This document shows, one piece after another, positions 294-22,788 of a stretch of 64,000 nucleotides of DNA. Position 1 is the first letter of the stretch; each line of letters opens with the position of its first letter. The stretch comes from a virus. The stretch covers positions 1 through 64,000 of IMG/VR virus record IMGVR_UViG_3300050128_000053. One strand, 5' to 3'. Made by a program: the position numbers and the translations under genes. The notes under the pieces were generated by a model. It did no database searches and had not been told where the DNA came from. It was given only the letters and a program-made list of their open reading frames with translations.

Positions 294-295
294 GC

Positions 296-326
296 GTCCC
301 ATCGGCACCAATGGTGCCGATGGGAC
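296..326 (-). terminator. Strong hairpin after the leftmost minus-strand gene
   Basis: A perfect 15-bp inverted repeat (296-310 with 312-326, arm GTCCCATCGGCACCA) has a one-base centre. It sits 12 bases past the stop of the gene at 338-610, between that gene and the GCTCC array. No T-run follows, so it is a hairpin-type or bidirectional terminator at best. Confidence 0.5.
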
Positions 327-337
327 GGCGGTGGTGC

Positions 338-1206: not shown

Positions 1207-1479
1207 TCATCCCACCAACTTGTCGTCAACATTGGGGAGTTGACCGCGCACCCATACGCCATCGCAACCGTCGCCCTCGCATGACCACCAGGTGATCCGG
1301 TCGTATTCGACGTGACCCAGGAGGTTCTGCGGCCACTCGATCCCGCACTTGGGACAGACCCGCTTGCCACCCACAGGGTGATCGACCTCCGGTATCTGGC
1401 TGATGAACAGTTGGGGTGCCATCTTCAATGCCAACTCCGACTCAATGGCGGCGTCCGACTTCTCGCTATTTGGACCCAT
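1207..1479 (-). CDS. Hypothetical protein with a zinc-ribbon-like motif
   Basis: 90 aa. CPKCGIEWPQ at about residue 42 and WWSCEGDGCDGVW at about residue 64 form two Cys pairs typical of a zinc ribbon. The stop of the upstream gene abuts its ATG (TAAATG). It belongs to a tightly packed leftward operon of small proteins. A nucleic-acid-binding role is possible but not shown. Confidence 0.7.
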   Translation of the reverse strand: MGPNSEKSDAAIESELALKMAPQLFISQIPEVDHPVGGKRVCPKCGIEWPQNLLGHVEYDRITWWSCEGDGCDGVWVRGQLPNVDDKLVG

Positions 1480-1758
1480 TTAATCGCTCCCCGCTATTGC
1501 ATGCCAGGCGTCAAGTGCGTCCTTGTCAACGCTCCATTCCGCCTGGCGCGTTCCATCATCGGATTCCCATTCGGGATAGACGCTCCTGCACACCGCTTCG
1601 GCGGCAGCAAGTCGGATGGACAACAACTCACATCGGAGTTTGCGGGCGGCGGCACGCCCGCGCCAGTAAGCCAACTGGTCAAGTAACAGTTCGGCGGCGT
1701 CTTGGGTCTGGCTCGGCGTCGCCGGAAGAACTTCCTCAATCAACCCATCGTCAGGCAT
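1480..1758 (-). CDS. Hypothetical protein
   Basis: The chosen ATG gives MPDDGLIEEV, 92 aa. The body is helical (QTQDAAELLLDQLAYWRGRA), followed by CELLSIRLAAAEAVC. No family recognised. Its start overlaps the end of a putative short upstream frame, and its stop abuts the next ATG. Confidence 0.65.
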   Translation of the reverse strand: MPDDGLIEEVLPATPSQTQDAAELLLDQLAYWRGRAAARKLRCELLSIRLAAAEAVCRSVYPEWESDDGTRQAEWSVDKDALDAWHAIAGSD

Positions 1759-1864
1759 CAACGCTCCCTTTCACCTCGGCATCGAGATTCAGCAGGCGGC
1801 GGATCGTTGGGCCGTACAGCGATGGAGCCAGCAACATCATCTGCACGAACTCGTCCCCGTCCAA
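1751..1864 (-). CDS. Putative very short protein in the gap between two genes
   Basis: A frame reading WVRLDGDEFVQMMLLAPSLY then GPTIRRLLNLDAEVKG fills the 110-bp gap and ends with TGA overlapping the next ATG. The codons look protein-like, but the start is unclear (TTG at 1864 or ATG at 1840). The frame stays open upstream into the previous gene, so it could also be the displaced end of that gene. Confidence 0.35.
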   Translation of the reverse strand: MDGDEFVQMMLLAPSLYGPTIRRLLNLDAEVKGSVDA

Positions 1865-1875
1865 TCGGACCCATT

Positions 1876-2361
1876 TCAGTTGTCGAACCAGAACACGACA
1901 CGGACCTCGGCCTCCAACATGCGCAGGATCTCCAAGTCCCGCATGAACGACGTACCCAAGAACTCCCGCAAGGGCCGCAAGCGTCCTTCCTCCGGTCCTC
2001 CGGTACAGCCTCCGTTCCAGGCGTTTCGGCCGACCTGGCGGGTCACACGGCGGTCATTGACCTCGGCGTCGTAGTCCACCACCAGAAGCTCCGTGAGGGT
2101 CACCCAAGACGGTGTGTGGGCAGCCACCCCCCAATCCTCGAAGTGGGCGCGAACGTCGTCTGAGGCATCGTCAGGAAAGCCCCGAGGTTCCATGAACGGC
2201 CCGACCTCTGAGTAGTTCCGGGGGCCAGCAAGCCACCCGAAAACGGCGTAGCTCCGGTTATCGAACGGGGCATCGTTGTACTCCCCGAACATGATTCCCT
2301 TGGCCTTCTCCCAACGGTCCCCGACACGGACCTCGACGTGAGGATGAATGTCACAGCCCAT
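1876..2361 (-). CDS. Conserved phage protein of the MGCDIH type, function unknown
   Basis: 161 aa. It begins MGCDIHPHVEVRVGDRWEKA and ends RVVFWFDN. It has LAGPRNYSEVGPF and PRGFPDDASDDV in the middle and HTPSWVTLTELL before the C-terminal third. I recognise this layout from unassigned proteins widespread in phages of many hosts. The ribosome site AAGGGAGG precedes the ATG. Conserved Cys/Asp/His in the first residues could be catalytic or metal-binding, but that is inference. Confidence 0.85.
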   Translation of the reverse strand: MGCDIHPHVEVRVGDRWEKAKGIMFGEYNDAPFDNRSYAVFGWLAGPRNYSEVGPFMEPRGFPDDASDDVRAHFEDWGVAAHTPSWVTLTELLVVDYDAEVNDRRVTRQVGRNAWNGGCTGGPEEGRLRPLREFLGTSFMRDLEILRMLEAEVRVVFWFDN

Positions 2362-2518
2362 CGCTGGCCTCCCTTGGGTTGATAGAAGTGAAATGTGATT
2401 GGTCCATACTGTCGGTCACGGTGTAGCTCGTCGGCTCGTTTTCGTGGTGGCGACGGTCGTGCCATTCCAGCGTTAGGAACCGGCAGTCGCTAATCGTGGA
2501 CGATCTTTCCGTCATCAT
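2351..2518 (-). CDS. Putative 55-aa protein
   Basis: Frame MMTERSSTISDCRFLTLEWH to PREASDGL, ending TGA inside the start of the next gene (11-base overlap). It begins where the upstream gene stops. Against it, its 3' third coincides with a leader-like TTCACTTCTATCA...GGGAGG motif seen before other genes, so this may be untranslated leader. Confidence 0.4.
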   Translation of the reverse strand: MMTERSSTISDCRFLTLEWHDRRHHENEPTSYTVTDSMDQSHFTSINPREASDGL

Positions 2519-2757
2519 CGTCCCGACCATTCAGCCCACACCTTGCCTTGGCGCATTTCAAGGTGCCAGAACCCCGGCCTGACTTCATGCGGGGCTGGCT
2601 GTTGACACGCTCCGTAACCGGGATCAACGACACCACATCGACCTGTTCGCTTGTACCAGCGGGATCGGCGCTCTGTCCCGATTATCCGGCGCTCAAAGCG
2701 GGCATGCTCCGTCATTGGAACCGATGACGATGCGACGTAGACGTACTCGGGTTTCAT
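2515..2757 (-). CDS. Hypothetical protein
   Basis: 80 aa starting MKPEYVYVASS after CAGGAGGACAC, one of the best ribosome sites in the window. It contains RWYKRTGRCGVVDPGYGACQ and ends GKVWAEWSGR. A TTCAATCA element lies just upstream of the ribosome site. No family recognised. Confidence 0.65.
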   Translation of the reverse strand: MKPEYVYVASSSVPMTEHARFERRIIGTERRSRWYKRTGRCGVVDPGYGACQQPAPHEVRPGFWHLEMRQGKVWAEWSGR

Positions 2758-2876
2758 GTGTCCTCCTGGGTGATTGAAGTGACATGGTAAAGCCAAGCGC
2801 TGTCGGTCACCTGGCGCCTGCCTCTTGCACCGTCATCGGGCGGTCGAGGTCGTGCGGACCCCCGTAACGCTCACGA

Positions 2877-3404
2877 TCACGCCTCGGTCGGCTTGAACTG
2901 CCACTGCTCAGTCTGCTCGGTGAGCAGACTCTCGTATTCCTTCTCGGTCAGCACCTTCTTGAAATAGAGACCCGAAACGGCATCGACATCGACATCGACG
3001 GTAATGGTGACGTTGGGGAGGCGCACCTGAAGGTCGCGGATGGTCTTCTCCTGAGCAGCGTCGAGCCACAGACCCTTCTTGCGCAACAGGGCCTCGGTCT
3101 TCTCAGGATCAGGCAAAGGGACGGCCGGCACCAAATGGCGCTCAGCCTTCAGAGCGATGTACTGATGCACCTTGCCCTTGTGATCCTCAAACTCAACCGG
3201 AGCCGAAAGCGGCAAATAGACGTGACCGTCCTCACCCGAGCGACCGCCGGAAAAAGTCTCGTCGAGCAGACGTAGACGTAGCTCTTCCTGACGGATCTTG
3301 AGGGCGGCGGCGTCATCTTTGATACCGAGCCACTCGGTGAACCGCCGAACGAGACTCGATGCCGAGCGCTGGCGACGAGGCTTTGCTGCAGTAGCTGTGG
3401 CCAT
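2877..3404 (-). CDS. Hypothetical protein next to the replication genes
   Basis: 175 aa starting MATATAAKPRRQRSASS, with ATAAAGGAGGCC upstream of the ATG. It has a basic N-terminus, then a charged helical stretch (DDAAALKIRQEELRLRLLDE), a beta-rich middle (HVYLPLSAPVEFEDHKGK) and a run NVTITVDVDVDAV. It may bind nucleic acid through the basic N-terminus. It is separated by about 115 bp from the helicase gene and may begin a new transcript. Function unknown. Confidence 0.7.
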   Translation of the reverse strand: MATATAAKPRRQRSASSLVRRFTEWLGIKDDAAALKIRQEELRLRLLDETFSGGRSGEDGHVYLPLSAPVEFEDHKGKVHQYIALKAERHLVPAVPLPDPEKTEALLRKKGLWLDAAQEKTIRDLQVRLPNVTITVDVDVDAVSGLYFKKVLTEKEYESLLTEQTEQWQFKPTEA

Positions 3405-3520
3405 TTCTGGCCTCCTTTATGAGTAGTGAGGGAAGAACCATTGTAGCAGGTTCACCCTCAGGGTCCAATGATTACGAAAGGACAAGATAGCGGGTGGGTG
3501 TATCAAGCCTCTGAACTGGG

Positions 3521-5065
3521 CTAATAGCGCTCAGAGAGAAAGTCGACCAATGTGCCGAGACTGAGGTGGAAGTCCCCCTCCCGAGTCACCCCCTTTCCGT
3601 CGAGCCATGCCGCAGCGATCTTTGACTTCTCCTCGAGCATCTCGGCTTGGCGCTCCTCTATCGAGCCCCGAGTGATCATCGACAGCAGTGTCACCTCGGG
3701 CCACTCCGAGCTAATGCGGATGATGCGCCCATTTCGCTGGTCGAACTTTCCAGCGCTCCATGGAAGATCGAAGCTCAGTAAAAAGTTCGCCACAGGAATG
3801 TCAACACCGATGCCGCCAGCATCTGACGATAGAAGCACCCTGCAGTGATCCTGACTAGAGAACCGTTCCACTGCTGCGTCACGTTCCCTCGGTGTCAAAT
3901 CACCGGTAAACAACTCATGGTCGACACGCAACTTGCTGCTGATTATGGCGAGCATCGGTTTGAAGAAGCTGAAGAGCACGACCTTGTTGTGAGGATCTGC
4001 GTCGAGGATGTCGCCGATGAGACCAAGGGTTTCCTTGAGTTTGTTCGATATGGGCGGCAGGGTGTCGAGTGCCCCTGTGTTACGCAGTTCCGCTAAGTAC
4101 CTGGACCCCGCCTTGGTGTCGGGGTCGTCGAATGCGTCAGCTGAGTACGTGAGAAGAGCTGGGTGATCGCACAGCATGCGCAAAGCCATAAGGCGCGGCA
4201 TGACCTCCCCTTGGATCCCGCCCTCTTCAGTACCGGCGTAATGGTCGTAAACGTTGAAACTGGCAAAACTCGGACTCGAATGGATAATAGAGATCAGCTC
4301 ACCGGCAATGCGCCGGTAAAGACGTTTGGAGACCGGATCGAGATCGATGTAGTAAGGCTTCTCGACCACCGCCGGCATTTGTTCCCTGATATCGGGGTCA
4401 CTGCGGGTCTTTCGGTGCATGGCCGTTTTCATCGTGCGACGAAGCAGCTTGAGATTTCGGTAATGGCTCACCGTACCGTTCGACCGCCGAGCTATGAAAG
4501 TCCGCTCAAACTTGAGAGCATCACCGAGCACGTCTTTGTCAATGAACTCCATGAGGGAGAAAAGCTCTTCGGGCCGGTTCTCGATCGGCTGACCCGTGAG
4601 CCCAAATCGATAAGGGGTCCGAAGCCGCTTGATGTGACGAGATCTTGCCGCTCGGGGGTTTTTCACAGCGACCACCTCGTCACACACCACAGCGTCGAAA
4701 TCAAGCAACCGCACAATGTCCCAATCGGCCACAATCTGCTCGTAGTTCATAATGACGTACTCGAGATCACCTCGACGAACGGTCCTGTACTGCAGCTTCC
4801 GCTTCCCTTTGTCGCCTTCGATGACCTTGACCAATGCGCCGTCGGTAAACCGATCGATCTGGCGCTTCCATTGCCATTTGATTGATGCTGGGCAGATGAT
4901 GAGGACACTCTGGATTTTTCCCTCATCAATGAGTTGCTCCGTGGCGGCAATGGCTTGGACCGTCTTCCCAAGCCCCATGGAGTGAGCTAGAAGAAACGCT
5001 TTACGATCAACCATCCTGGCCACCGCTTCTTCTTGAAATGGGAGAAGCGTCCCCTTGAACGTCAT
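3521..5065 (-). CDS. SNF2-type superfamily 2 helicase/ATPase
   Basis: 514 aa, a full-length two-RecA-domain ATPase. Seen: Walker A MGLGKT (residues 30-35), motif Ia IICPASIKWQWKRQI, motif II CDEVV (128-132, in place of the usual DEAH/DExx), motif III GLTGQPIEN (155-163), motif V SSDAGGIGVDIP and motif VI QRNGRIIRI. The layout FDLPWSAGKFDQRNGR is typical of phage SNF2 proteins that remodel DNA-protein complexes in replication or recombination. It overlaps the primase stop by 4 bases (ATGA), so the two are probably translationally coupled in the order loader, helicase, primase, SNF2. Confidence 0.92.
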   Translation of the reverse strand: MTFKGTLLPFQEEAVARMVDRKAFLLAHSMGLGKTVQAIAATEQLIDEGKIQSVLIICPASIKWQWKRQIDRFTDGALVKVIEGDKGKRKLQYRTVRRGDLEYVIMNYEQIVADWDIVRLLDFDAVVCDEVVAVKNPRAARSRHIKRLRTPYRFGLTGQPIENRPEELFSLMEFIDKDVLGDALKFERTFIARRSNGTVSHYRNLKLLRRTMKTAMHRKTRSDPDIREQMPAVVEKPYYIDLDPVSKRLYRRIAGELISIIHSSPSFASFNVYDHYAGTEEGGIQGEVMPRLMALRMLCDHPALLTYSADAFDDPDTKAGSRYLAELRNTGALDTLPPISNKLKETLGLIGDILDADPHNKVVLFSFFKPMLAIISSKLRVDHELFTGDLTPRERDAAVERFSSQDHCRVLLSSDAGGIGVDIPVANFLLSFDLPWSAGKFDQRNGRIIRISSEWPEVTLLSMITRGSIEERQAEMLEEKSKIAAAWLDGKGVTREGDFHLSLGTLVDFLSERY

Positions 5066-5937
5066 CGGCCAAACGCCTCGACGATCTGATCGTCTGACAT
5101 CTCACCTGGGTCCTTTACTCCCTCAGGGTACTTGAGCACAGAAGTTGCGAGTGATTTGGCCAGACCCAAGTAAATCCTCTTCGACTGGCGGTTTCCTTCT
5201 TCATCGTTATCAAGAGCCAACACGACGCGCTTAGCACGCCTGTGGAGAAGGGTGAGCTGTCTCCGTGAAACAAACGCACCGAATGACGAAACTGCCGGCA
5301 CAGCGACCGAAGCCAAACGCACGACATCTAGGGGAGACTCCACCAATGCCACCGTAGTTCCCGTGAGCTGGTGGTACCCAAAAAGAGTCTGGGATTTCTT
5401 TACCTGCTTGGGAAAGTTCGATACGAAATCAAGGCGCTTGAACTGCCAGCCCCAAAGCTCTGGCTTTGTCTTGGACGGCGACCAGATGGGGATGATCCAT
5501 CCCTTGTCCCAACGAACCCCGAACCGGTGCATCTGCTCAGAAGTAATATGGCGCTCTTCGTGGGCCCATTGAGGGGGCTGCTTGAAGGTCTCGTACTGAG
5601 CGCTCAATACGAAAGGATCGATGAGTGGCTCTTCGGGTGGTTCAGGTTCTCGCTCCTGCTGCCTCGTCTTGCGCATTTTGCGCTGGCGCACCTCTCGCAA
5701 GTACTCAACGGTATTACCCTTCGTCGTATTGCACTTGACCAACAAATCCTCAAGAGTCCCAGCTTCTTGACACTGATAACAAATGAACAACCCCGTAGAG
5801 GCGTTTATGGAGAATGATGGATGTGCATCGGTATGAAATGGGCAATGAGCAGAGATCTCACGCCCAATCGAAACGATTTGGATACCGAGATCCTCGAGAA
5901 CCTCCTGTACCGTCGTCGGCAGAGACTCAACCTTCAT
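5062..5937 (-). CDS. DNA primase, CHC2 zinc finger plus TOPRIM
   Basis: 291 aa from the chosen ATG (MKVESLPTTV), which overlaps the DnaB-like stop by 11 bases. The zinc finger is CPFH (32-35) with CYQC (53-56). TOPRIM motifs are VALVESPLDVV (acidic Glu near residue 200) and LALDNDEEG (near 241-248). It is short next to bacterial DnaG (about 600 aa) and lacks the helicase-binding C-terminal domain, as in compact phage primases. It would make RNA primers for the adjacent DnaB-like helicase. Confidence 0.92.
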   Translation of the reverse strand: MKVESLPTTVQEVLEDLGIQIVSIGREISAHCPFHTDAHPSFSINASTGLFICYQCQEAGTLEDLLVKCNTTKGNTVEYLREVRQRKMRKTRQQEREPEPPEEPLIDPFVLSAQYETFKQPPQWAHEERHITSEQMHRFGVRWDKGWIIPIWSPSKTKPELWGWQFKRLDFVSNFPKQVKKSQTLFGYHQLTGTTVALVESPLDVVRLASVAVPAVSSFGAFVSRRQLTLLHRRAKRVVLALDNDEEGNRQSKRIYLGLAKSLATSVLKYPEGVKDPGEMSDDQIVEAFGR

Positions 5938-7180
5938 CGTCAACATCCTCGTCGAGACCAGCACTGTTGAAATCAGCCTCGTTGAAATCGCTCTCTTCCC
6001 AGTTACAGATGATCGATATCTCACAAGGCGACACATTGCGACCACCCACCACACGAAGGCGGATCTGGTTGATGTCGGGAAGACGCTCCACTCCCAAGAT
6101 CACATCGGCGTCCTGCGCCCACGCTGATGTCCAACCCAAGCTGTTCAGGGTCACAATACCGTCCTTACCCATTTTGCCAGAAAGGGCCTGGGTGGTCCCG
6201 ATAACCGGTTTATCGATCCGTTGAGCGAGGCGCTTGAGTCCACGGGAGACCGCAGTGTACGCAGCAGCTTCGCCAGCCTTGGCACCGATCTCATTCTCCA
6301 TGAGATAACACCCGTCAATGAAAAGGATATCGGGCTGGTACTCGTCAACCTTGCCCGAGAGTCCCGACACTGTGGTAGTGGCAGAAATGTCGGCCGAAAT
6401 AACGAAGTCAGGAAGATTACGACGAAGTGCAATGCCCTTCTTGAGTTTCTTCATCTCCTCATCGTCAAGATAGTTACGCACCACGTGATTGGCGTTTACT
6501 CCTGACACCATGGCGTCATAGCGAGCAAGCTGCTCCCGCTGCGACATCTCAAAAGTGACGAAGAGCACCGAGTACCCAGCGTCTTGAGCGGCAATAGCCG
6601 AACGCATGAGTAAAAACGACTTCCCGTGCTTCGGACCTCCACCAAAGAGAATGAACTGTTGATCCAAGTACCCACCACTGGAGAAGTCCAATGTGGGGAA
6701 ACCTGTTTGGATTCCACTCAGTTCGCCAACGTGCATTCTCGCTTCGTCATAAGCTTCGTAACGGGCCCGAGTTCGGCGCGTGACATTGACATCACTGAGT
6801 GAGCAGACTTCACGCCCGAGCTGAAGCAGGGCCTGAGAAATCCTGCGCTGAGCGCCCTTATGATCATCATCCTGCAGCAGCGTATCGGCATCGACAATGC
6901 CGTCGACAAGGATGGACCGCTCGCGCTGGGAACGAAAACGGTCAAGGTAGTACTCATAGGGTTCACGGCAACGTGCGAGTTGGTAAGCGGGAAACTCGGC
7001 TGAGATGGCTTCCCTCGTTGGTGCGCCGCCATACCTCGAGTTGTATTCCAGCATCCATTTGAAGACCCTCTTGTGCTCTAGATCCTCAAACCAATCAAGA
7101 CGCACCCCACCACGGGTCGCTGTTGAGAGATCCTCGTCCAGAACAATCTTCGACAGCATCGACCATGCAGCGTCAGCCAT
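5927..7180 (-). CDS. DnaB-like replicative helicase
   Basis: 417 aa. The N-terminal helical domain (1-130) is followed by a RecA fold with P-loop GGGPKHGKS (180-188), LFVTFEMS (motif H1a), Walker B-like ILFIDGCYLM (about 275) and VIGTTQALSG. The late motif RLRVVGGRNVSPCE resembles the DnaB end region with the arginine finger. The C-terminus is acidic (DEDVDDEG). The operon position between a DnaC-like loader and a primase supports the replicative role. The 3' end overlaps the primase start. Confidence 0.93.
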   Translation of the reverse strand: MADAAWSMLSKIVLDEDLSTATRGGVRLDWFEDLEHKRVFKWMLEYNSRYGGAPTREAISAEFPAYQLARCREPYEYYLDRFRSQRERSILVDGIVDADTLLQDDDHKGAQRRISQALLQLGREVCSLSDVNVTRRTRARYEAYDEARMHVGELSGIQTGFPTLDFSSGGYLDQQFILFGGGPKHGKSFLLMRSAIAAQDAGYSVLFVTFEMSQREQLARYDAMVSGVNANHVVRNYLDDEEMKKLKKGIALRRNLPDFVISADISATTTVSGLSGKVDEYQPDILFIDGCYLMENEIGAKAGEAAAYTAVSRGLKRLAQRIDKPVIGTTQALSGKMGKDGIVTLNSLGWTSAWAQDADVILGVERLPDINQIRLRVVGGRNVSPCEISIICNWEESDFNEADFNSAGLDEDVDDEG

Positions 7181-8417: not shown

Positions 8418-9731
8418 TCAGACGCTAGAGCCGCGGCGCAGCACAGTGGTCAAGTGCTTGACGACGGCCGCCGCAATGGCATCGATCTCACTCTTCGACA
8501 TCCCACGAGCCGCTGCAGTCGACGGAGTGCTGGCAGGGCGGCGAACGGTCGCTGTCTTCTTAGCGGTCGCTACAGCCTCCTTCTTGGCCGGGCGCTTCTT
8601 GGTCGGAGCCCGCTTGGTGGCGGGCGCTGCGGGCTTCTTGGTACGAATGGGTTCCCCTGATTGCACCTGGAGGATCCGATCGATCACCATGGCCACCTTG
8701 ATCCCGCGTCCTGGGAGCACTCCAAAGGTTTCAGCAACCTTGTAGAACTCTGTCTTGTCGCGAAGGGCCAGTCGATTGAGCTTGTCCTCGGTGTACTGTC
8801 CAGGCTTCGGTGCTGCGGTCTTCGGTGCTGCGGTCTTTCGTGTTGGCGGCATTTCTTCCTCTTCCTCGTCTTCAGACTCTTCGTCTTCGGACGCATCGTC
8901 GTCGGCGAGGTCTTCCTCTTCCTCCTCGTCGTTCTCCTCTTCCTCGTCGAGATCGTCATCGTCCTCTTCAGCGACATCGTCCTCGTCTTCGGACTCTTCA
9001 AGGTCGTCCTCGTCTTCGGACTCTTCAAGGTCGTCCTCGTCTTCGGACTCTTCAAGGTCGTCCTCGTCTTCGATCTCCTCGGAGTCTTCTTCTTCCTCCT
9101 CCTCCTCCTCCTCCTTTTCTACGAAGACATCCTCGTCATCATCAAGGTCTTCATCGTCGAACTCCTCTTCTTCGAACTCCTCTTCTTCGAGGTCTTCCTC
9201 TTCATCGCTGGGGCGGGGCATATCAGGTGGCTCCTCTGTATTGTTTTCGGTTTCGAGTACAACTTTGTCAAGGCCGTCAAGAAGGGACTGGACCAGAATG
9301 TTTTTCCTGCGGGCTGCGACCACGGAAGCATATACGTAATCGTCTTCATCGGGGTTACCCAGAATGATGAGCCGGCTGAAGGGGTAAAGTGCCAGACTCG
9401 CCGCCATTCCTTTGTGGATGGAACTGTTCTCAGTGAGGCGCATGAGGTTGCCGAGAGCGTCCGTCATGAAAGGCTTGACACTCTCCTGCTCAAAGAACTC
9501 ATCATGTCCAACGAGCCCCAAGGTGTGACCTGACGTCAAGCAGTAATCTGCCAACTCGACCAATGTGTCAGTGAAGGCAGGCTCAACTGCGATAAGGAAC
9601 CTTATAGGGGCATTGCGATAGTCGCGGTGGTACGCATCAATCAAATCTGACAAGAGGGCCCGAACGTTGTCCCTATGAAGAGCGTCGGTACCGACAAACC
9701 CCAGAGTAAGAGACTGGCTTGAAGTTGCCAT
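8418..9731 (-). CDS. Acidic/basic low-complexity protein with an ordered N-terminal domain
   Basis: 437 aa in three parts. Residues 1-165 look folded (TLGFVGTDALHRDNVRALLS; RLIILGNPDEDDYVYASVV), possibly a Rossmann-like domain. Residues of about 175-295 are almost wholly Glu/Asp with tandem nine-residue units (EDEDDLEES) encoded by 27-bp direct repeats at about 8990-9070. Residues 300-437 are Lys/Ala/Pro-rich and histone H1-like (TKKRPAKKEAVATAKK), with a short structured TEDKLNRLALRDKTEFYKVA segment. A strong AGGAGG precedes the start, and terminators bound the gene on both sides, so it is its own unit. A DNA- or virion-charge role is inference. Confidence 0.85.
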   Translation of the reverse strand: MATSSQSLTLGFVGTDALHRDNVRALLSDLIDAYHRDYRNAPIRFLIAVEPAFTDTLVELADYCLTSGHTLGLVGHDEFFEQESVKPFMTDALGNLMRLTENSSIHKGMAASLALYPFSRLIILGNPDEDDYVYASVVAARRKNILVQSLLDGLDKVVLETENNTEEPPDMPRPSDEEEDLEEEEFEEEEFDDEDLDDDEDVFVEKEEEEEEEEEDSEEIEDEDDLEESEDEDDLEESEDEDDLEESEDEDDVAEEDDDDLDEEEENDEEEEEDLADDDASEDEESEDEEEEEMPPTRKTAAPKTAAPKPGQYTEDKLNRLALRDKTEFYKVAETFGVLPGRGIKVAMVIDRILQVQSGEPIRTKKPAAPATKRAPTKKRPAKKEAVATAKKTATVRRPASTPSTAAARGMSKSEIDAIAAAVVKHLTTVLRRGSSV

Positions 9732-9776
9732 TTACTGCGGTTTCCTCCTGATTGAAATGAACCATCCTTGAGTGCT

Positions 9777-9812
9777 GGGGGGAGAGGGATCCTCGCATTT
9801 CCCTCTCCCCCC
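9777..9812 (-). terminator. Strong hairpin terminator after the holin-like gene
   Basis: Perfect 13-bp inverted repeat (9777-9789 with 9800-9812, arm GGGGGGAGAGGGA) with a 10-base loop. It separates the late tail operon, ending at the holin-like gene, from the acidic/basic protein gene. No T-run follows. Confidence 0.7.
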
Positions 9813-9916
9813 ACTCCACCTGCTACTGCGTGCGATGGCAACTGAGTCCCTGCAAAGGTCCAAGCCCATCCATCACCAGCTGCAAGCAGTTACCCTAATC
9901 AAACCTTTCCCACCCG

Positions 9917-10204
9917 TCAACCCGGTCCCCTCCGAGCATCCCGAAGAGTCTGACGAACTGTTCGATCTCCTAAGACAATGAGGAGCCTGACGACTCGGTG
10001 CACGGCAATCGAAAGTCCAGCAGCCGCCGCAGCATAGATAATCGCCTCATCTGGTCTTTTGGTCCCAAAACGCCAAAGCGAACAGGCCAGGGTGAGCGCC
10101 ACGACCAAAACCATCTTGATGGCCGGCGGCACTGTTTTCGGCCAAATCTGCTTGATGAACTGGACAACAAAAAAAGCTGCCAGAGCCGCTACTACCAGGA
10201 TCAT
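9917..10204 (-). CDS. Small membrane protein, holin-like
   Basis: 95 aa with hydrophobic segments at about 1-18 (MILVVAALAAFFVVQFIK), 28-45 (IKMVLVVALTLACSLW) and 54-80 (AIIYAAAAAGLSIAVHRVV), then a basic tail (RQTLRDARRGPG). Length, three membrane segments and a charged end fit class I/II-type holins. It is the last gene of the tail operon. The endolysin is far away at 42 kb, so the lysis assignment rests on topology only. Confidence 0.65.
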   Translation of the reverse strand: MILVVAALAAFFVVQFIKQIWPKTVPPAIKMVLVVALTLACSLWRFGTKRPDEAIIYAAAAAGLSIAVHRVVRLLIVLGDRTVRQTLRDARRGPG

Positions 10205-10243
10205 GAGCGCCTTCTAGATGTATGTGAAATGAGTGAAACCAGA

Positions 10244-13200
10244 CTAACCGTTCAAGCCTGCATTGGCGAATGCGCTTGCCCCGATGAAGAGGCTGAATGT
10301 ACTACCGATGGGAATGTAGTCAGGAAGAGCCTCGACAAGGCGAGCTAGCCTCACCTCGAGTTTCGGGTAGTAATCAGACGGTGATTGGTTTGGTGTGCCC
10401 TCGAAAAGGTAATCAGTAGCCGGATTGAAGTTGGCATCGAAATAGGGCAGTACAGCTGCGGAAGCCTCAAAGAGGACGGCGCCGAGGTAATGGGACGCTG
10501 GCCCTGAGGCACTTCCAGCTAAGGTCACGATGGCGTACTGCGCAGTTGAAGGAGCGGGTTGATTGATCAGCTGAAACTGCGTAAAGACACCGGCTTCCTC
10601 GGCGAACTCCTCAAGCGGTAACGGTGTCGAAGAAAGCAGCACGTTGGATTTGTTGTAGAACGAAACACTGATCGTCACATTCTCAGCGAGCAACGTGACG
10701 GGTCGAAGGTAACAGGAGAAGGAATAGGCCTTCCCATCGTTCACGGGCAGTTCTCCAGTCGAAACCGAAAAAGCCCCTGCGCCATTGGAGGTGATGACAA
10801 AGCCGCCTGAGGTCGTAACTGGCCAAATAACAGGCGCAGAAGAGGAAGCGATGCCCCCCACCGACGCTGTCCACCCATAGGTACCACCGAGCCCAACCGG
10901 ATTAGGTATCGAGTTCTGGCGCACTGGGAAAAGGTTCACCTGGATATCGCGAGGTGGAGTCCAAGTGGATCCAAGTGGAACTGCCCCACTGCCGATGGCA
11001 TCGAATAGGTGGTTGTCCCCTGCCAACGTGCCGACTGAGGAAACTGTGCGCCCATACGTGATGGCTCCAGGGGGCGGCGCTGTCGCAGGCACCAAGAGAC
11101 GCTTCCACTCACCCGCTACCTCAGTCACCGATGCCCCGACTGTCGAAGAGATCAGCACACCGTTTTGGCCGTACCAATCGAGTTGAGCGAAGAACTCTTG
11201 CAGAACCACATTTGCCGGATCGGGCTGCACATGAACGTAATACGAGACCTCTTGTCCATCGGCCGGTATGGGTATCCCAAGCACTGGAGCATTAAAAGGC
11301 GTACAGGTCGAAAAGACAGCCTGGTAAGTCTCGTCGGATCCTACCCAGGTGTCAGAAACAAGAGTAGGACTGCTCAGCGAACTACCACCACTCCCACTCA
11401 AAGTCGTAAACCCCGTGATCCCACCGAAGAGCAACATGCCTGCGGCGCTTGAGTCGTAGACCATCATTGCTTGCGTTCTCGGAAGCGGTGATACCACGGC
11501 CGGCAGAAGAACCCATTCAGTCCCATTCCACGTCCACGAATCGGTGAAGAGGTCGTTGTCGTTGTCATTACCGCCGAAAAGAACTGTCACACCCAAAGTG
11601 GCGTCGTACGACATATTCGCCGACATCCGCTTTTTCGGAAAGGGACCAGTGGAAGGAGTGACATTGTTCCAAGTAGTCCCGCTCCATTCCCATACGTCAT
11701 TGAGCACATCACCGGTAGCGCCCATGCCACCGAAGACAACAAGAACGCCTCGACCTGAGTCATACGCGTATGCTGCGCCAGCTCGTGGCGTTGGACTCGT
11801 CACTGGGTTGAGTTGGGTCCAGGCTGTCTCATTCCATTGCCAGGTGTCATTCAGCACACCACCACTAGAACTCATGCCGCCGAAAAGGATTGAATCCACC
11901 CCGCTCGTAATGCGGAACACAGCCTGCGACCGCTCTGGTGGAGTCAAACCGGTAATGATCTCGGCCCAAGTGGTCCCGTTCCACGACCAGAAGTCATTAC
12001 GCGCTGACCCACTCGAATCTATTCCCCCGAACAGGTAAACCAAAGAAGCTGTTGGGTCGTGTGTCATATTGGTGTACATCCGAGCTGGCGGCGATGCCGC
12101 AGGCGCCTGTTCAACCCAAGTAGTCCCGTTCCAAACCCACGTATCGCCAGCAGGATTCCCAGAAGCAAGAAGACCGCCGAACAATACGACATTGCCCAAT
12201 ACGTTGGCCACCGCAATCCCTGCGCCAGCTCGAGCAGCAGGAGAGGTCGTTAGGCTCTGTCTGGTCCATGTGAATGCGCCGCCCGCCGTCACAATCATCA
12301 TGTTCTCGTTGTTCACAGGCAAATACCCTGCCGTCGCAATGGGCAACGCCAAAGGAACAGGGGAATACACAGTGGCATGTTGGGGAGTTACCCCTGCAGC
12401 CGCCGAAGAAATGAGTCCCAACGTCGTACCGTTGTTCAATGGTTGCCAATGACCAGTTGATTCGTCAAAGGCACAGTCGTCCAGTTGGATCTCCAGATTG
12501 CCCCCTATGGTGACCTGAGCCCCATAACCAGAAAAGGCCGAAGCTGCAGCCTCAACGCCGATAGCTGTTCCCTTGTTCTTGTAGAGGAAAACAGCATTCT
12601 TCACCAGGACGCGAGACCGTGTCATACCAAGTTCGGGCTCATACCCCATACCAAAGTTCGCACCGAGAACCGGAAGCAGAACGCCCGAGACAAGGTCACC
12701 GTTATTGAGGTTGACCAGAGTCTCGATCTCTGAACGAATCCAGTTCATCTCAAAGCCGAGTAGTCCCAAGAACTGCCTAAGAGGTGCAGACAAAGCTCCA
12801 GTCGGACCAGTTACCCGAATGTCCTCGGCGAGATAGAACTGAGGCAGCCACTGGGCAAACAAGTCTTCAAATCCGTAATCGGTCAGAACAAGTCCTTGAG
12901 CTGCGCCAACGATCACGTACTCGTCTATCTGCGGCGTGGCCTGCTCTGGGTAAAGGGCAAAGAGGGCGTAGTAATAGATGAGCCCAGACTGGAGATTGGT
13001 GTCGATGAACTGCGAGGAGAACCCCTGCGGAGTGGCCTGTTGATATTCGGCGAGAACGGGTTCCCCATCGAATATGCTCGTCGGCGTCCCATACGAAGAC
13101 CGCATGAGAACTTGACCCAGGATCCCATTGATCGGTGTCCACCTCACCCCTAAGGTGTCGTAGTAATAGGGCGTAACAGTGAGAGTGGTCCCTATGACGC

Positions 13201-13273
13201 TCGATGGTGGCGAACCCCAAACGGTTTCGCCGAAAATGGCGTTGCCCCAAGGGGCGTAGTTACTAGTCGGCAT
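10244..13273 (-). CDS. Baseplate gpI-like / receptor-binding protein with kelch propeller
   Basis: 1009 aa. The N-terminal 280 residues resemble phage tail protein I (LPQFYLAEDIRVTGPTGALS; LLGFEMNWIRSEIETLVNL; ALGANF-type and KNKGTAIGVEAAASAFSG). About residues 330-640 hold at least five kelch-type repeats, each with WxWNGTTWxE and LFGG (VVLFGGLLASGNP; LVYLFGGIDSSGS; DSILFGGMSSSGG; LVVFGGMGATGDV; VTVLFGGNDNDND), predicting a beta-propeller. The remaining 370 residues are beta-rich and may be one or two jelly-roll carbohydrate-binding domains. It follows the collar-type fibre gene by 3 bases. It probably links the baseplate to a glycan receptor. Confidence 0.85.
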   Translation of the reverse strand: MPTSNYAPWGNAIFGETVWGSPPSSVIGTTLTVTPYYYDTLGVRWTPINGILGQVLMRSSYGTPTSIFDGEPVLAEYQQATPQGFSSQFIDTNLQSGLIYYYALFALYPEQATPQIDEYVIVGAAQGLVLTDYGFEDLFAQWLPQFYLAEDIRVTGPTGALSAPLRQFLGLLGFEMNWIRSEIETLVNLNNGDLVSGVLLPVLGANFGMGYEPELGMTRSRVLVKNAVFLYKNKGTAIGVEAAASAFSGYGAQVTIGGNLEIQLDDCAFDESTGHWQPLNNGTTLGLISSAAAGVTPQHATVYSPVPLALPIATAGYLPVNNENMMIVTAGGAFTWTRQSLTTSPAARAGAGIAVANVLGNVVLFGGLLASGNPAGDTWVWNGTTWVEQAPAASPPARMYTNMTHDPTASLVYLFGGIDSSGSARNDFWSWNGTTWAEIITGLTPPERSQAVFRITSGVDSILFGGMSSSGGVLNDTWQWNETAWTQLNPVTSPTPRAGAAYAYDSGRGVLVVFGGMGATGDVLNDVWEWSGTTWNNVTPSTGPFPKKRMSANMSYDATLGVTVLFGGNDNDNDLFTDSWTWNGTEWVLLPAVVSPLPRTQAMMVYDSSAAGMLLFGGITGFTTLSGSGGSSLSSPTLVSDTWVGSDETYQAVFSTCTPFNAPVLGIPIPADGQEVSYYVHVQPDPANVVLQEFFAQLDWYGQNGVLISSTVGASVTEVAGEWKRLLVPATAPPPGAITYGRTVSSVGTLAGDNHLFDAIGSGAVPLGSTWTPPRDIQVNLFPVRQNSIPNPVGLGGTYGWTASVGGIASSSAPVIWPVTTSGGFVITSNGAGAFSVSTGELPVNDGKAYSFSCYLRPVTLLAENVTISVSFYNKSNVLLSSTPLPLEEFAEEAGVFTQFQLINQPAPSTAQYAIVTLAGSASGPASHYLGAVLFEASAAVLPYFDANFNPATDYLFEGTPNQSPSDYYPKLEVRLARLVEALPDYIPIGSTFSLFIGASAFANAGLNG

Positions 13274-13276
13274 CGA

Positions 13277-14479
13277 CTAGATGTGGACGTACCAGAAGCC
13301 ACCAAAAATGGGCAACGGCAGAGTGTTCGGTACCTGTGGAACAGAACCAAGAGGACCTTCAACTGGCACAGCCATATCACTGTAGGTGTTACTACCAGTT
13401 TCGAAGAGACCAAAGATCCCAGGGTAAGGGGAGAAACTGTTATAACCATCAACAGGATTAGAAACTGGTCCGACCCCCACAGGAAAAGCCCCGCTTGTCG
13501 GTGCTGGAAGATTGAAGGTACTTGAAGCGTTCCCGTTCCCATGGGGGAAAATGGTGAACGTATACGAACCAGTCGCTACGGTTGTTGACAACTGTATTGA
13601 ACTGCCAGAGAGATTCTCAATGGTGGTCGCAAACGCAGTTCCACTGGGATCCGGCACACCCTCGATGTCAAACCCTGGAATCGTCCAGAGTGGATTTGGA
13701 GGAAGACTGCCTGTTCCCTTGAAAGGAGTATTCCCCCCAGCCGCAGGAGTGATGAGGTTGGTACCGTTACCGGTTCCTTGGAAAGATTGAGAAACGGCGG
13801 CCATTAGAGCGGCATACGTCGCCCTTGATTCAGCACTCCCATCAGCCAAAAGGAATCCATACGATGGCATCATGGCTGATGAAAACTTCAGATCCCCTGG
13901 CTGCCAGCCCTCATTCACCCAGCCGATGCCCGACGGAGAACTAAACGAGTTGGCTCCCACCTGGAGAATCTGGAAGGGCTCGCCCGCAGAAAGAAGAATG
14001 GCATTGCCCTCCACATTCGCGACGATGAGCTGTCCTTGCGCATTAAGAACCTCAGAGAGATCGTTCAATGTGAATGTAATAGGACCCGATCGACCGTCAA
14101 AGGTCTTCACACCCACGTGAACATGGCCAGCATCAGCCGCCAACTCTGTTTCTCCAGCGGCGGCATTTGCGCCCACGGGTTGAATCGCCACCGAACTGGT
14201 GTTGATCACGACGTTGTCGGCGATGATCGCCTCGTCATAGACCAGGCGGGCGGTAATGGTATCGAAGAACTGGCCAGCCTCTTCCGAATAGAGAGGGTTG
14301 GCGGCAATCGACCCACCAGTGGTTGAACCATTACCAAAGCCGATTCCCTGCTCGAGAGCGAGGATCGCCGAAGCCCAAAAGTTGCCAAAGGACGCGTCGA
14401 TGTACTGCGTGTCATCTTGGTAAGGGGTCCCGGGAATCGGGTAGTCGTACCCTTGCGGCCATTGTGATGATGTAGCCAT
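13277..14479 (-). CDS. Tail fibre protein with phage tail collar domain
   Basis: 400 aa. The collar domain is seen at about residues 190-260: PGDLKFSSAMMPSYGFLLAD, then GSAESRATYAALMAAVSQSF and GTNLITPAAGG. The N-terminal part has a fibre-like link (DAGHVHVGVKTFDGRSGPIT). The C-terminal 150 residues are Ser/Thr/Gly/Pro-rich and probably form the distal, host-contacting part. It sits between the J-like baseplate gene and the kelch protein. Confidence 0.85.
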   Translation of the reverse strand: MATSSQWPQGYDYPIPGTPYQDDTQYIDASFGNFWASAILALEQGIGFGNGSTTGGSIAANPLYSEEAGQFFDTITARLVYDEAIIADNVVINTSSVAIQPVGANAAAGETELAADAGHVHVGVKTFDGRSGPITFTLNDLSEVLNAQGQLIVANVEGNAILLSAGEPFQILQVGANSFSSPSGIGWVNEGWQPGDLKFSSAMMPSYGFLLADGSAESRATYAALMAAVSQSFQGTGNGTNLITPAAGGNTPFKGTGSLPPNPLWTIPGFDIEGVPDPSGTAFATTIENLSGSSIQLSTTVATGSYTFTIFPHGNGNASSTFNLPAPTSGAFPVGVGPVSNPVDGYNSFSPYPGIFGLFETGSNTYSDMAVPVEGPLGSVPQVPNTLPLPIFGGFWYVHI

Positions 14480-14490: not shown

Positions 14491-16242
14491 TTATGACCCT
14501 GCGAGCCCGCCGCTCGTGGTAAAGACGAAAGCACCCGCCACAGGGATCTCGTTCTCAAGGAGTACGCAGTCCGACGTCCCTGAGGTGTCTTGGATGGCAG
14601 TCCCCACAGTGTAAGTGGCATTAGCCACAAAACTGTTCACCGGGATGGACGTTGCCCCTGCAGGAGCACCGCCCGAAGAGACGATGACAGATTGCGTCGG
14701 TGAGGTAGCCAGAGAGTTCAGGACAATCTGATCCCCACCGAAGACCGCCTCGGGAAGTTCAGAGACCGAAAGCGTGGTGTACGTGTCGCCATTAGTGAGA
14801 GCGGACGTAAGCATGGCCAACATCTGACGGTTGAGGGACGTCACAAAGGCGTAGTTCACGCCGGCTTGGGCAAGGATCGTCTGATAGATGATGCCCAATG
14901 CCACGCGGAACCCGAATCCTGTATTCACAAGAGCAAGTAATGTGGCGAGCGCATTTGTCACCAGGGTCTGTGTGGCTGTGTTGCCGTAAGTAGGGAGTAC
15001 GAACAGCTCAACTGCGATATTGATGGGTACGTAGGTCGGATCCATAATGGTCACAGTCGTGTTCGCCATGACCACTGCATCAATAGAGGACTGCACCGTT
15101 GCCACAAGGGCGGCTGTGGGATTACCACCACCAGCCGGCGCAATGAAGAGATTGACCAGTTGATACGTTGCCTGCTGCGCCGAGGCCCACTGCACACTCG
15201 AGGGGGAAGCCTGTAGGGCCAATGTCTCAATGTCATCAACAGTGACAGCCCGGTTGTTCGTACGCAATGACGCTGGGGCGCTCGCTCTGATGGACTGGAT
15301 TGACTGCGCTGGAGCACCTCCAGTAGCAGCGGACGGGTTCGTCACCGATGACAATCCGACAATGGCCGCCAAAGGCTCGACAATGGTCTGTGCCGCCACA
15401 TTCCCAATAGACCCGGAGTTGGTCTGGTACGTACAAGTGATCGGGCTACCAAGCGGCGGCACGTATCCGTTAATGCCGTCCCCAAAGATCAGATAGAACA
15501 CCTGATTCGCGTCAACGAAATACGTGTAAACCTGATCGTAGGGCCCAGAAAGAATCAAGCTCTGCACGTAGGTCCAAAGCTGTGGGCCATTACCCAGGTC
15601 AACGTAGACCTCGGTCGAGGGCACCCCACCCAGAGTGGCGGATTGGCTGACTGGATTGTAGAGGAGGGCGTACGTCTGATTGATCGCTCCATTTGAAGTA
15701 CCAACCGGCTGATCCGTATAGGTGTTCCCCTGTGCTGCTTGCACGAAGCCAACACCAGCACCAGAAGACGGTGTGGCCACATTAAGCGGCTGAATGACCA
15801 ACGCTTCAATAGTTGAGAAAACCACAGGAGGAACAGTGACCGAAGCCAGCGTCGAGAACTCCGTACCGGCAGGAATCGTTACCGGTGTGCTGAGTGTGGG
15901 AGAAATAACGATTTGAAGCAAGACCGAAGCAGCGGTTGAAAGCCCCGGCTGATAATCGAGCATGGCTGCAAGGTTGAGGACTGAAGATGCTTGAGTAGCT
16001 GTCTGTATGAATGCCTCTCCAGCCAAACGGTCACAGTAGTACCCGAGGAGGTCACCCACGTAGCTGTAGAGCTGTAAGAGGACCACCCCGAAATCTGCAT
16101 TCGATGTCGAAGTCCACTCGGGGAGAAATAGTGTCTTGCGCGCCATGAGATCAGCAAAGATCGAGGCGTAATCCCTCGATGAATAGTCAAAGACAGGGTA
16201 AGGGCCATTGTTCGGGCTCGCTGTGTCGGAGACGAAGGTCAT
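14491..16242 (-). CDS. Baseplate J-like protein
   Basis: 583 aa. The N-terminus YSSRDYASIFADLMARKTLF and GVVLLQLYSYVGDLLGYYCD is typical of baseplate J/gp6-like wedge proteins. VTIPAGTEFSTLASVTVPPV and the mid-part QSIRASAPASLRTNNRAVTV (the J-like core before DDIETLALQASP) confirm it. Its C-terminal 120 residues carry a beta-rich addition. The start overlaps the stop of the gp25-like gene, as in other contractile tail clusters. It forms the wedge ring joining hub to fibres. Confidence 0.93.
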   Translation of the reverse strand: MTFVSDTASPNNGPYPVFDYSSRDYASIFADLMARKTLFLPEWTSTSNADFGVVLLQLYSYVGDLLGYYCDRLAGEAFIQTATQASSVLNLAAMLDYQPGLSTAASVLLQIVISPTLSTPVTIPAGTEFSTLASVTVPPVVFSTIEALVIQPLNVATPSSGAGVGFVQAAQGNTYTDQPVGTSNGAINQTYALLYNPVSQSATLGGVPSTEVYVDLGNGPQLWTYVQSLILSGPYDQVYTYFVDANQVFYLIFGDGINGYVPPLGSPITCTYQTNSGSIGNVAAQTIVEPLAAIVGLSSVTNPSAATGGAPAQSIQSIRASAPASLRTNNRAVTVDDIETLALQASPSSVQWASAQQATYQLVNLFIAPAGGGNPTAALVATVQSSIDAVVMANTTVTIMDPTYVPINIAVELFVLPTYGNTATQTLVTNALATLLALVNTGFGFRVALGIIYQTILAQAGVNYAFVTSLNRQMLAMLTSALTNGDTYTTLSVSELPEAVFGGDQIVLNSLATSPTQSVIVSSGGAPAGATSIPVNSFVANATYTVGTAIQDTSGTSDCVLLENEIPVAGAFVFTTSGGLAGS

Positions 16243-16964
16243 TATGGCGCAACCACCTGTTGAACGCTACCACCGGTCGAAATCGTAATCGTGTTCACTT
16301 TGTTGAAGGGCGCTACAGCAAAAGCCACTGTGATCAACAGGATGCCCGTATCCTGTTGCTGGCCGCTCGTCGAGTTCACAGTAACACTCAACACATTGAC
16401 CGCCGGCTCCCATTGTTGGATTTCGGCACTGAGATCGGCCGCCATCACTTGCATGATCGGCGAGCCGAGAGGAGCAAAGAGTGCCTTTTCAACCCTGCTC
16501 CCGAAGGTTGGGATCATGATGCGCTCGCCCACCGCAGTCAGGACGATGGTCTCGATGTGTTGCGCCAAGATATCCACATAGTTGGAAAGGTAGGCCAGTG
16601 CCCCGGTCGTGGCATCGAACTGAAAGGGAAGTGCTATCTCACTTCCAGTAGGCAGTTCAGCTACCAGCGGCGTCAATACCGCCTGAGGAACAGGCTCGAG
16701 AATGACGTTCAAACCATACGCCCAAGGTCCACTATTACCGTGAGTATCGGTAATGATCCCCGAAGCGCTGTATGCACCGAGAAGAAGGAACCCAGCAGAG
16801 GTGACAAGACCAGTAGGCGAAACAGTGAAAGCCGAAGAAGGCACAGTCGTATCGAAAAAGAAGGGTGGAGTCGAATCAAGAACTGTCAGTTGATCTTGAA
16901 ATACATTGCTCTCGGTCGGGATAACCGATCCGGTCAGCGGAGCGCCTTGAACGAGCACAGTCAT
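16242..16964 (-). CDS. gp25/gpW-like baseplate wedge protein with an N-terminal Ig-like domain
   Basis: 240 aa. The C-terminal half (about 120-240) has the gp25 signature: HIETIVLTAVGERIMIPTFG, then SRVEKALFAPLGSP and EIQQWEPAVNVLSVTV. The first 110 residues, from about VFQDQLTVLDSTPPFFF to GIITDTHGNSGPW, look like a cadherin/Ig-like domain, which is not part of the roughly 130-residue gp25 family. It is translationally coupled to the J-like gene. The extra domain may decorate the baseplate rim. Confidence 0.88.
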   Translation of the reverse strand: MTVLVQGAPLTGSVIPTESNVFQDQLTVLDSTPPFFFDTTVPSSAFTVSPTGLVTSAGFLLLGAYSASGIITDTHGNSGPWAYGLNVILEPVPQAVLTPLVAELPTGSEIALPFQFDATTGALAYLSNYVDILAQHIETIVLTAVGERIMIPTFGSRVEKALFAPLGSPIMQVMAADLSAEIQQWEPAVNVLSVTVNSTSGQQQDTGILLITVAFAVAPFNKVNTITISTGGSVQQVVAP

Positions 16965-21841: not shown

Positions 21842-22788
21842 GGAATGGGAGGTGGACCGAATCCTGGCTGGTTTTCGATCTGTTGAAGGGCTGCAACATT
21901 AGGATTAGCACTAAAGCTCGGAGCACGGACACTTGGAGCACCGCTCGAGGCAACCGCTGGAGGGACGTAGGAAGTCATCATCTGCAGATCGATCTCGCAA
22001 CGCGACGGCATCATGTCCCACCGAAAAATCCCATAAGTAATGGTCACCGATGTGATGAATCCAGTGAACCCCCACAACTGGCCCGCCTCGTTTGCTGCAA
22101 AAACAACCTGAATCGGAGTAGAAATCGGGACAGCGCCCGTGCTCTCAAACGTCCCCATCAAAGCGTACAGAGCAGCGACATCCTTAAGGACACCGCGATT
22201 GTCCAAGGCATTCGGAGAGTACATGATGTCGTAAGTACGATCAAAGATAAGGGACCAAGAAACAGTCTGCCCACTGGTGAGATTAGGCACATTCCCAGCC
22301 GGCGTCGTAGAACTCGGAGCACCTGTACTAGAAAATGGATTAACAGCGCCGCCAGAGGAAGAATACTGATTCAAACCAGAAAGAGAACTGGACGTTGGAG
22401 ACAACCCATAGAGATAGCCAGCAGGAATCTGATTGATGTTCGTAATGAAGCTCGCCACGATCTGATTTGGGTTGAAAATGAAGTACAGGTAGTTAACATC
22501 ACCATCGGGGAGTGACCCAGGAAAGTTACGCATAATGCCCACACGCTTAGGAGCTGTGACAGGGTTACCGCCGTAAGGTTGAATACCATTTGGAATCCCA
22601 CCGGGAACGATAGGCGGATTTGAATAACCACCAGAGCTTGTCCCTATACCAGCGGTCATCCCCTGTTCAAGCGTTAGTGCTGTATTCCCAACTCCAAATG
22701 CTGTTCCTGGGGCTAGAAAAATATCATTGGGATCGTCAGCAGAAAACGACCCTGGACCTGTATTAGGGACAACCACACTGGTCGACAT
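21838..22788 (-). CDS. Tail-tube/baseplate adaptor protein
   Basis: 316 aa. After a Gly/Ser/Pro-rich first 85 residues comes NYLYFIFNPNQIVASFITNI, then SWSLIFDRTYDIMYSP and TSVTITYGIFRWDMMPSRCE. The pattern (tube-like beta strands then a LysM-adaptor interface) resembles the tube-initiator/adaptor proteins between tape measure and hub in contractile systems. The family is inferred from position and strand pattern, not from a motif I can name with certainty. Confidence 0.7.
   Translation of the reverse strand: MSTSVVVPNTGPGSFSADDPNDIFLAPGTAFGVGNTALTLEQGMTAGIGTSSGGYSNPPIVPGGIPNGIQPYGGNPVTAPKRVGIMRNFPGSLPDGDVNYLYFIFNPNQIVASFITNINQIPAGYLYGLSPTSSSLSGLNQYSSSGGAVNPFSSTGAPSSTTPAGNVPNLTSGQTVSWSLIFDRTYDIMYSPNALDNRGVLKDVAALYALMGTFESTGAVPISTPIQVVFAANEAGQLWGFTGFITSVTITYGIFRWDMMPSRCEIDLQMMTSYVPPAVASSGAPSVRAPSFSANPNVAALQQIENQPGFGPPPIP

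Follow-up and report, generated by a model that had tools for sequence, protein, structure and literature searches.

A predicted six-bladed Kelch propeller nested in a gpI-type phage baseplate protein

What is a Kelch propeller doing in the baseplate of a phage tail, and could it be the part that meets the host? The question is raised by a gpI-type protein encoded in the first 64,000 nucleotides (positions 1 to 64,000, here the window) of the IMG/VR virus record IMGVR_UViG_3300050128_000053, in which a first-pass annotation had noticed Kelch-like repeats and suggested that they might form a receptor-binding module. Sequence comparison and structure prediction supply the anchor family of this protein, the order of the genes around it, a count of six blades, a closed fold, the site at which the propeller is inserted, and relatives that either do without a propeller or carry twelve blades. 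By analogy with studied systems, we consider it probable that the product is a third baseplate wedge protein (BW3) carrying a built-in host-surface-binding module, of which the propeller would be one optional part. The coordinates of all features are collected in Table 1.

Inspection of the protein reveals tandem repeats of about 50 residues with the GG and W pattern of Kelch domains: six FGG motifs (residues 365, 415, 464, 514, 566 and 616) and five W-x-W-[N/S] motifs (residues 379, 429, 478, 528 and 580), each series with a period of ~50 residues. In a Pfam scan of the 1009-aa protein, Kelch (PF24681) is matched with an E-value of 1.7e-29 and 103 bits against a cut-off of 50, and a Kelch profile run over the 88,865-base IMG/VR virus contig finds no match outside this gene (10244-13273). 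The blades start at residues 347, 397, 447, 496, 548 and 598, behind a leading strand at 334-339. Aligned in pairs, with 200 shuffles per pair as a control, blades 1-5 score 87-117 against a shuffle maximum of 57, and all 10 of the 10 pairs beat every shuffle; blade 6, which is without a W-x-W stretch, scores 36-49 against shuffle maxima of 41-45 and beats all shuffles in only two of five pairs. In the predicted model, the fourth strand of blade 6 appears to be supplied by residues 334-339, ahead of blade 1. Base composition gives no sign of a foreign origin (GC content 55.6% in the Kelch part, 54.0% in the anchor), and a chimeric assembly is unlikely because the same arrangement recurs on four further contigs, the IMG/VR loci L233, L234, L249 and L250.

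An AlphaFold model of the whole protein, built from a six-row alignment, shows six regular blades over residues 341-620, with block means of the predicted local distance difference test (pLDDT) of 60-87, ~80 on average. The ring of four-stranded blades is closed in the model by two end strands that share one blade, the leading strand (334-339) and the last strand (642-647), both in pLDDT blocks of ~60; outside the propeller the model is poor (pLDDT <35 up to residue 330 and in the 20s over 651-800). The best Foldseek matches are Kelch propellers (8uxs, E 1.3e-18, target TM 0.76). VIA-align matches model residues 331-648 to LZTR1 with a Z-score of 38.0 (290 aligned residues, 2.0 Å), and further matches are KLHDC2 (Z ~37) and Keap1 and the designed SAKe6 proteins (Z ~30), the propellers of all of which we take to be six-bladed. 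Residues 334-647 are predicted in this way to form a closed six-bladed Kelch propeller. The repeats, first put at five or more, are real and number six by FGG motifs, Pfam match, blade alignments and model alike; structure prediction, which the first-pass annotation had recommended for counting blades, gives these six plus the leading and last strands, and the outcome that it had named as fatal, repeats that do not close into a propeller, is contradicted by the prediction and by the whole-length match to closed Kelch propellers.

The N-terminal part of the protein links it to the baseplate. Tail_P2_I (Pfam) matches residues 177-249 at 22.6 bits, just above its cut-off of 20.6; the same profile is above cut-off in L234, L233, L246 and L250 and below it in L249 (18.0), and the anchor is 53-60% identical to those of five IMG/VR relatives. 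The NCBIfam phage tail protein domain TIGR02242 reaches 26.3 bits, short of its cut-off of 51.85, and the protein is not assigned there. The genes run in the order gp25, J, collar, gpI, the collar gene sitting between J and gpI. A Phage_base_V-domain protein is likewise encoded upstream on the same strand as the collar, J and gp25 genes, and farther upstream one gene product combines NlpC/P60 with VanY domains, and further genes encode a T4-baseplate-type protein, a gp19-type tube protein and a sheath protein; on this gene content the tail module is that of a contractile tail. Because Tail_P2_I lies above its cut-off and the gene neighbours those for J and gp25, in a tail module that also encodes sheath and tube, we assign the anchor, from profile and gene order, to the BW3 family (P2 gpI / T4 gp7 / TssG type). 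At the rim of the baseplate, proteins of the gpI/BW3 family assemble with the J-type protein into a 2:1 heterotrimer. The proposal of a Kelch propeller on a gpI-like baseplate protein is hence backed by profiles, gene order and the predicted closed fold.

Alignment with L246, a close relative without a propeller, indicates that the propeller interrupts another domain. At the site, L246 reads GYLPESNERIAVIGANGAVLGLSTCT in alignment A7, and the window protein has GYLPVNNENMMIVTAGGA ahead of the propeller and STCT behind it; L246 places zero residues against 334-647, with 159 of 272 identities before the site and 62 of 126 after it (residues 648-779). L233, L234 and L249 leave and rejoin the alignment at the same two points, and L250 leaves it there, after which its contig ends. 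The nesting is hidden in an alignment with the distant relative L128, and L246 is misaligned in MAFFT sets mixed with bacterial Kelch fragments, which were not used for modelling.

The domain so interrupted resembles one found in gene transfer agents (GTAs). NF048003 (GTA_spike_fiber, GTA head spike fibre) has a cut-off of 36 that is set for whole proteins, and segments were scanned here: just after the propeller L234 matches profile positions 50 to 155 above cut-off (37.5), and just after the site L246 matches from profile position 48, below cut-off (23.3). In the second, uninterrupted domain of the same type, the window protein matches positions 6-171 of 182 at 19.1 bits, below cut-off, and L233 likewise matches nearly the whole profile, above it (39.2). 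L128 scores 26.9, below cut-off, and NF048003 has no match in the next gene of L249 or in L131. CBM_4_9, a carbohydrate-binding module (CBM) family of Pfam, exceeds its cut-off of 25.9 in the second domain of the distant relatives L128 and L131 (34.6 and 34.9), but a scan of window residues 640-1009 for it gives nothing up to E 1. To judge from these comparisons, the domain that houses the propeller would be a relative of the GTA head-spike-fibre domains, and in the close relatives L246 and L247 the site carries no insertion. What seems to be the equivalent place in the second domain is modelled as strand-turn-strand (825-829 and 833-839, pLDDT ~50-60). The uninterrupted domain of L246 is modelled poorly throughout (mean pLDDT 40.8); that the propeller is inserted into a beta-hairpin of a domain of sugar-binding type may fairly be inferred. 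In Streptomyces phages and in L249, an end like the conserved C-terminus belongs to the following gene instead; in L249 this next open reading frame (ORF; 510 aa) is 44% identical over 271 aa to window residues 749-1007.

The distribution of the propeller among relatives bears on what it contributes. A search of IMG/VR with the whole window protein returned no relatives, and one for close relatives of the J protein confirmed none; alignment-based scans later found relatives of the protein, confirming 12 of 53 candidate stretches with the Kelch alignment and 12 of 121 with the anchor alignment (L245 and L248 duplicate the contigs of L233 and L234). Eight contigs, the window included, have at least 48% anchor identity: Kelch is present in five (window, L233, L234, L249, L250) and absent from L246 and L247, which are nearly identical to each other, and L251, which has frame breaks and a contig that ends ahead of the site, was left out of the count. 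The more distant L252-L256 have no Kelch, and FGG occurs in none of 27 ORFs of still more distant gpI relatives, 22 of them informative and the others (L126, L134, L146, L147, L150) incomplete, running off their contigs. Comparison with the propellers of related phages, another check advised at the outset, gives complete counts of 6 blades in L234, 6 in L249 and 12 in L233, next to 6 in the window, and at least 8 in L250, which is cut by a contig end; blades were delimited by hand-chosen markers, and the window ring is the sole one modelled. To build one or two closed rings of six blades, a chain would need one leading strand plus 6 or 12 blades, as seen here.

Presence in five and absence in two of the seven informative close contigs, with a varying blade number, could also describe a tolerated passenger or spacer, that is, a neutral, drifting repeat domain, and blades of the same index are about as alike between relatives (26-45%) as blades are within one propeller (means 33-46%). 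All five carriers, on the other hand, keep an open frame and the blade pattern, with complete counts of 6, 6, 6 and 12, and we regard a mere passenger as quite improbable. The lower identity of the propellers among relatives (34-41%, against 53-60% for the anchor) would fit a fast-changing binder and a loosely constrained passenger alike.

Whether the propellers descend from one insertion is answered differently by two lines of evidence. In a tree of 49 Kelch rows, in which the gpI rows omit blade 6 of every ring and the later L250 blades, the six gpI rows do not form one clade (5 changes), a single origin of these rows appears in 0% of 200 bootstrap trees, and L250 pairs with a Paenibacillus row (support 91/90); support is lacking for most of the branches that matter here, and those with good support require no more than 2 changes. 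The blade register favours the opposite answer, blade 1 against blade 1 being the best rotation in six of nine comparisons between propellers. Most other matches of the Kelch-alignment scan are stand-alone genes of 300-317 aa (L235-L238 and L240-L244). The IMG/VR contigs that carry them measure 46 to 359 kb, and the gene sits around locus position 10000, except in L240 (1453); the six of them in the tree form one clade (100/100). In a further locus, L020, the minus strand of 1-6069 encodes a 2023-aa tail-fibre-like ORF that extends past the locus end and has several Kelch-matching stretches, apparently another phage-type adhesin with Kelch. We offer only tentatively the idea that a hairpin in a BW3 domain of sugar-binding type is a slot for host-recognition cassettes, in which closed propellers, as a single six-blade ring or a pair, would be gained, doubled, lost and renewed between a conserved anchor and a conserved outer end. 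The phage could then change its grip with no need of a separate fibre gene, and the chain beyond may reach polysaccharide-degrading domains, as in L249.

One relative extends past its propeller into domains of other kinds. The gpI-type protein of L249 (9995-17490, 1992 aa) combines Kelch with two TIG domains and ends in a GH16-like segment. Its Pfam matches are TIG, Kelch and a sub-threshold Tail_P2_I; the GH16-like C-terminus is weakly supported (6xof, E 0.0025; NF041449 at 18.1 bits against a cut-off of 350), and two middle segments, which look like glycoside hydrolases by eye only, have no sequence match in the PDB. Downstream of the propeller-less gpI gene of L246 lies a gene (9526-12213) whose 895-aa product matches nothing in Pfam or NCBIfam; this protein shares 43% over 221 aa with the L249 gpI extension and may hold polysaccharide-active domains. 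A GH16-like end on L249, together with the naming of Pfam Kelch_3 and Kelch_4 after the central domain of galactose oxidase, raises the thought that the propeller is itself an enzyme acting on host glycans, of the galactose-oxidase type or another sugar-active propeller. Galactose oxidase needs a Tyr-Cys cross-link and His copper ligands. Because residues 334-647 contain one His and no Cys, the full ligand set is impossible and an enzyme of the galactose-oxidase type is rejected; no catalytic site was recognised in the propeller, and we judge an enzymatic role of any kind very unlikely.

The matches of the propeller suggest a further role. Its best structural and sequence matches are eukaryotic protein-binding Kelch domains, BW3 and TssG proteins are described as anchoring other proteins (PMC6300606, PMC10811340; statements cited here by PMC number come from excerpts of those papers), and the collar-domain gene adjoins gpI in the window and in the relatives examined, a collar-type protein preceding gpI in each of five (38-45% over aligned parts). 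The propeller might accordingly be a protein-protein docking platform for the collar protein or neighbouring wedges, with the collar protein or another fibre recognising the host. L246 and L247 retain the collar-type neighbour without a propeller, so the propeller is not needed to hold the collar protein; moreover, the flanking domains resemble sugar-binding types, and L249 continues into its GH16-like end. On balance we find a docking platform unlikely.

Published precedents instead make a host-surface role for the distal part most likely. Receptor-binding proteins (RBPs) attach to BW3 (T4 gp7 / pyocin PA0619 / P2 gpI) at the baseplate periphery (PMC10811340), and TssG of the type VI secretion system anchors the RBP-like TssK (PMC6300606). 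Vp4 Gp119, a BW3 with CBM folds, decorates host cells, unlike a homologue that has no CBM (PMC11406892). Capsular polysaccharide is the target of the RcGTA head spike fibre (PMC10218006), and phi11 RBP, phiKZ gp131 and PRD1 P2 contain propellers (PMC4901313). The continuation of L249 into TIG domains and a GH16-like end fits such a role, as does the L246 downstream gene akin to the L249 extension. The propeller as a receptor-binding module is plausible and is the reading we favour, narrowed to one nested part of a larger BW3 assembly, because L246 and L247 do without it and the collar neighbour could bind the host.

By this favoured reading, residues 1-279 would anchor the protein in the baseplate wedge, and six copies would stand on the baseplate rim; the position in the virion, the copy number and the binding of glycans or a receptor we infer by analogy. 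Beyond the anchor would follow two domains related to GTA head-spike-fibre and CBM-type domains, the first of them interrupted, at an apparent beta-hairpin tip, by the predicted closed propeller. Because closure by the leading strand, which would complete the last blade, brings the two ends of the propeller together, it could sit inside another domain without breaking it. The distal part would contact the host envelope, probably its glycans, during adsorption, with the propeller adding a large surface for binding, one that is missing in some relatives and present twice over in another.

Several points weigh against this picture. Host-surface binding by the protein is argued from the BW3 position, the domain types and the Vp4 precedent; the closest structure and sequence matches are mostly protein-binding Kelch domains of eukaryotes and not sugar binders; and the neighbouring collar protein could be the receptor binder. 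The window protein stays below the NF048003 cut-off (19.1 against 36) and gives no CBM match to E 1, the uninterrupted L246 domain is modelled poorly, and the two ring-closing strands reach a pLDDT of only ~60. The propeller is dispensable in the family, being absent in L246 and L247, its lower identity (34-41% against 53-60%) also fits a loosely constrained passenger, and the tree and the blade register appear to disagree on one shared origin.

Each element has a precedent: CBMs occur on BW3, RBPs contain propellers and phages encode Kelch proteins. Vp4 Gp119 is likewise a BW3 with extra sugar-binding-type domains in one chain and a homologue, in a related phage, lacking them, likened here by description only, and the excerpts report no propeller in it (PMC11406892). 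The propellers of phiKZ gp131 (seven-bladed, at the baseplate periphery), phi11 RBP (five-bladed) and PRD1 P2 also occupy known or proposed receptor-binding positions but, by the descriptions excerpted, have other blade numbers and are RBP or peripheral domains not nested in a BW3 (PMC4901313). Jumbo phages encode Kelch proteins, namely CBB_550/552/554, of which CBB_552 was detected in the virion (PMC5259590), and one of pEa_SNUABM_12 (PMC7760394), with no BW3 fusion reported in the excerpts; the pEa_SNUABM_12 Kelch gene is a separate coding sequence of 290 aa. Bacterial Kelch proteins (Acidobacteriota, Actinomycetota and others) are 32-45% identical to the Kelch query (the 80 retained of 363 confirmed loci). 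Among the Streptomyces phages, BRock, LuckySocke, GiJojo and pSt2308 have minor tail proteins ~25% identical over the anchor and encoded at the corresponding position, with J and then one other gene ahead of them, and the protein from the gene that follows ends like the window protein; unlike it, they have no Kelch by tblastn or blastp and keep the C-terminal module on a separate gene. In BRock (L003 5140-9849), gp126 and gp125 carry on adjacent genes the anchor and C-terminal module that are fused in the window protein.

Kelch propellers had been called unusual in phage tails, which is fair in so far as tblastn against 50,697 phage records found no Kelch match at E<=1e-3 with the whole protein or the 12-blade relative; the Kelch part alone, searched at E<=10, hit no more than 12 records, the best at E 0.9 and one with the annotation 'putative kelch-like protein'. 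The claim needs tempering, since IMG/VR contigs and jumbo phages carry Kelch, and the search is shown to be insensitive by the Kelch proteins published for jumbo phages, including one detected in the virion (PMC5259590). What seems to be new is the combination, a Kelch ring nested in a sugar-binding-type BW3 domain whose site is uninterrupted in some relatives and holds a single or double ring in others; no Kelch propeller in a gpI/BW3 protein is reported in the literature searched, with most subscription journals and bioRxiv outside its coverage.

Other genes of the window deserve brief mention. The J protein is closest to those of Streptomyces phages (32-34% identity), a likeness that hints at an actinobacterial host. 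The tail-module protein at 22788-26159 (1123 aa) joins NlpC/P60 and VanY, two peptidoglycan-cutting types, in one chain and, from these domains, is likely a tail lysin. At 8418-9731 lies a gene for a 437-aa protein with long acidic (D/E) runs, the N-terminal relatives of which (41-47%, ~170-180 aa) lie downstream of gpI in L233, L234 and L246, and at 31144-32154, upstream of the sheath gene, one for a 336-aa protein with a TIG (Ig-like) domain.

Table 1. Features of the gpI-type gene and its baseplate neighbours, in window coordinates.
Feature	Coordinates	Strand	Basis
gpI/BW3-type baseplate protein with nested Kelch propeller, whole gene	10244..13273	minus	ATG start, 1009 aa
Anchor part, residues 1-279	12437..13273	minus	Tail_P2_I match; Streptomyces phage and IMG/VR relatives
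First part of interrupted domain, residues 280-333	12275..12436	minus	Alignment A7 and identities
Predicted Kelch propeller, six blades, residues 334-647	11333..12274	minus	Pfam, blade alignment, predicted model, no counterpart in L246
Remainder of interrupted domain, residues 648-770 (end approximate)	10964..11332	minus	L246 identities; NF048003 in L234 and L246
Second, uninterrupted domain of same type, residues 785-945	10439..10921	minus	NF048003; all-beta model, pLDDT ~50-80
Conserved C-terminal end, residues 951-1009	10247..10423	minus	36-41 of 58-59 identities to L234, L246, L233
Collar-domain protein, rival candidate receptor binder	13277..14479	minus	PF07484 at 24.5 bits, cut-off 24; relatives in L233, L234, L246, L249, L250
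J-type baseplate wedge protein	14491..16242	minus	PF04865 and phrog_219; 48-59% identity to J of the five full relatives examined
gp25-type baseplate wedge protein	16242..16964	minus	PF04965

BW3 is the attachment point of RBPs in several studied contractile phages, and the relatives described here, propeller-less, single, doubled and GH16-extended, form a comparative series for the gain and exchange of host-binding modules. If complete rings come in sixes, as we predict, L250, cut at blade 8, should reach 12. The propeller itself is a compact domain suited to cell-binding tests.

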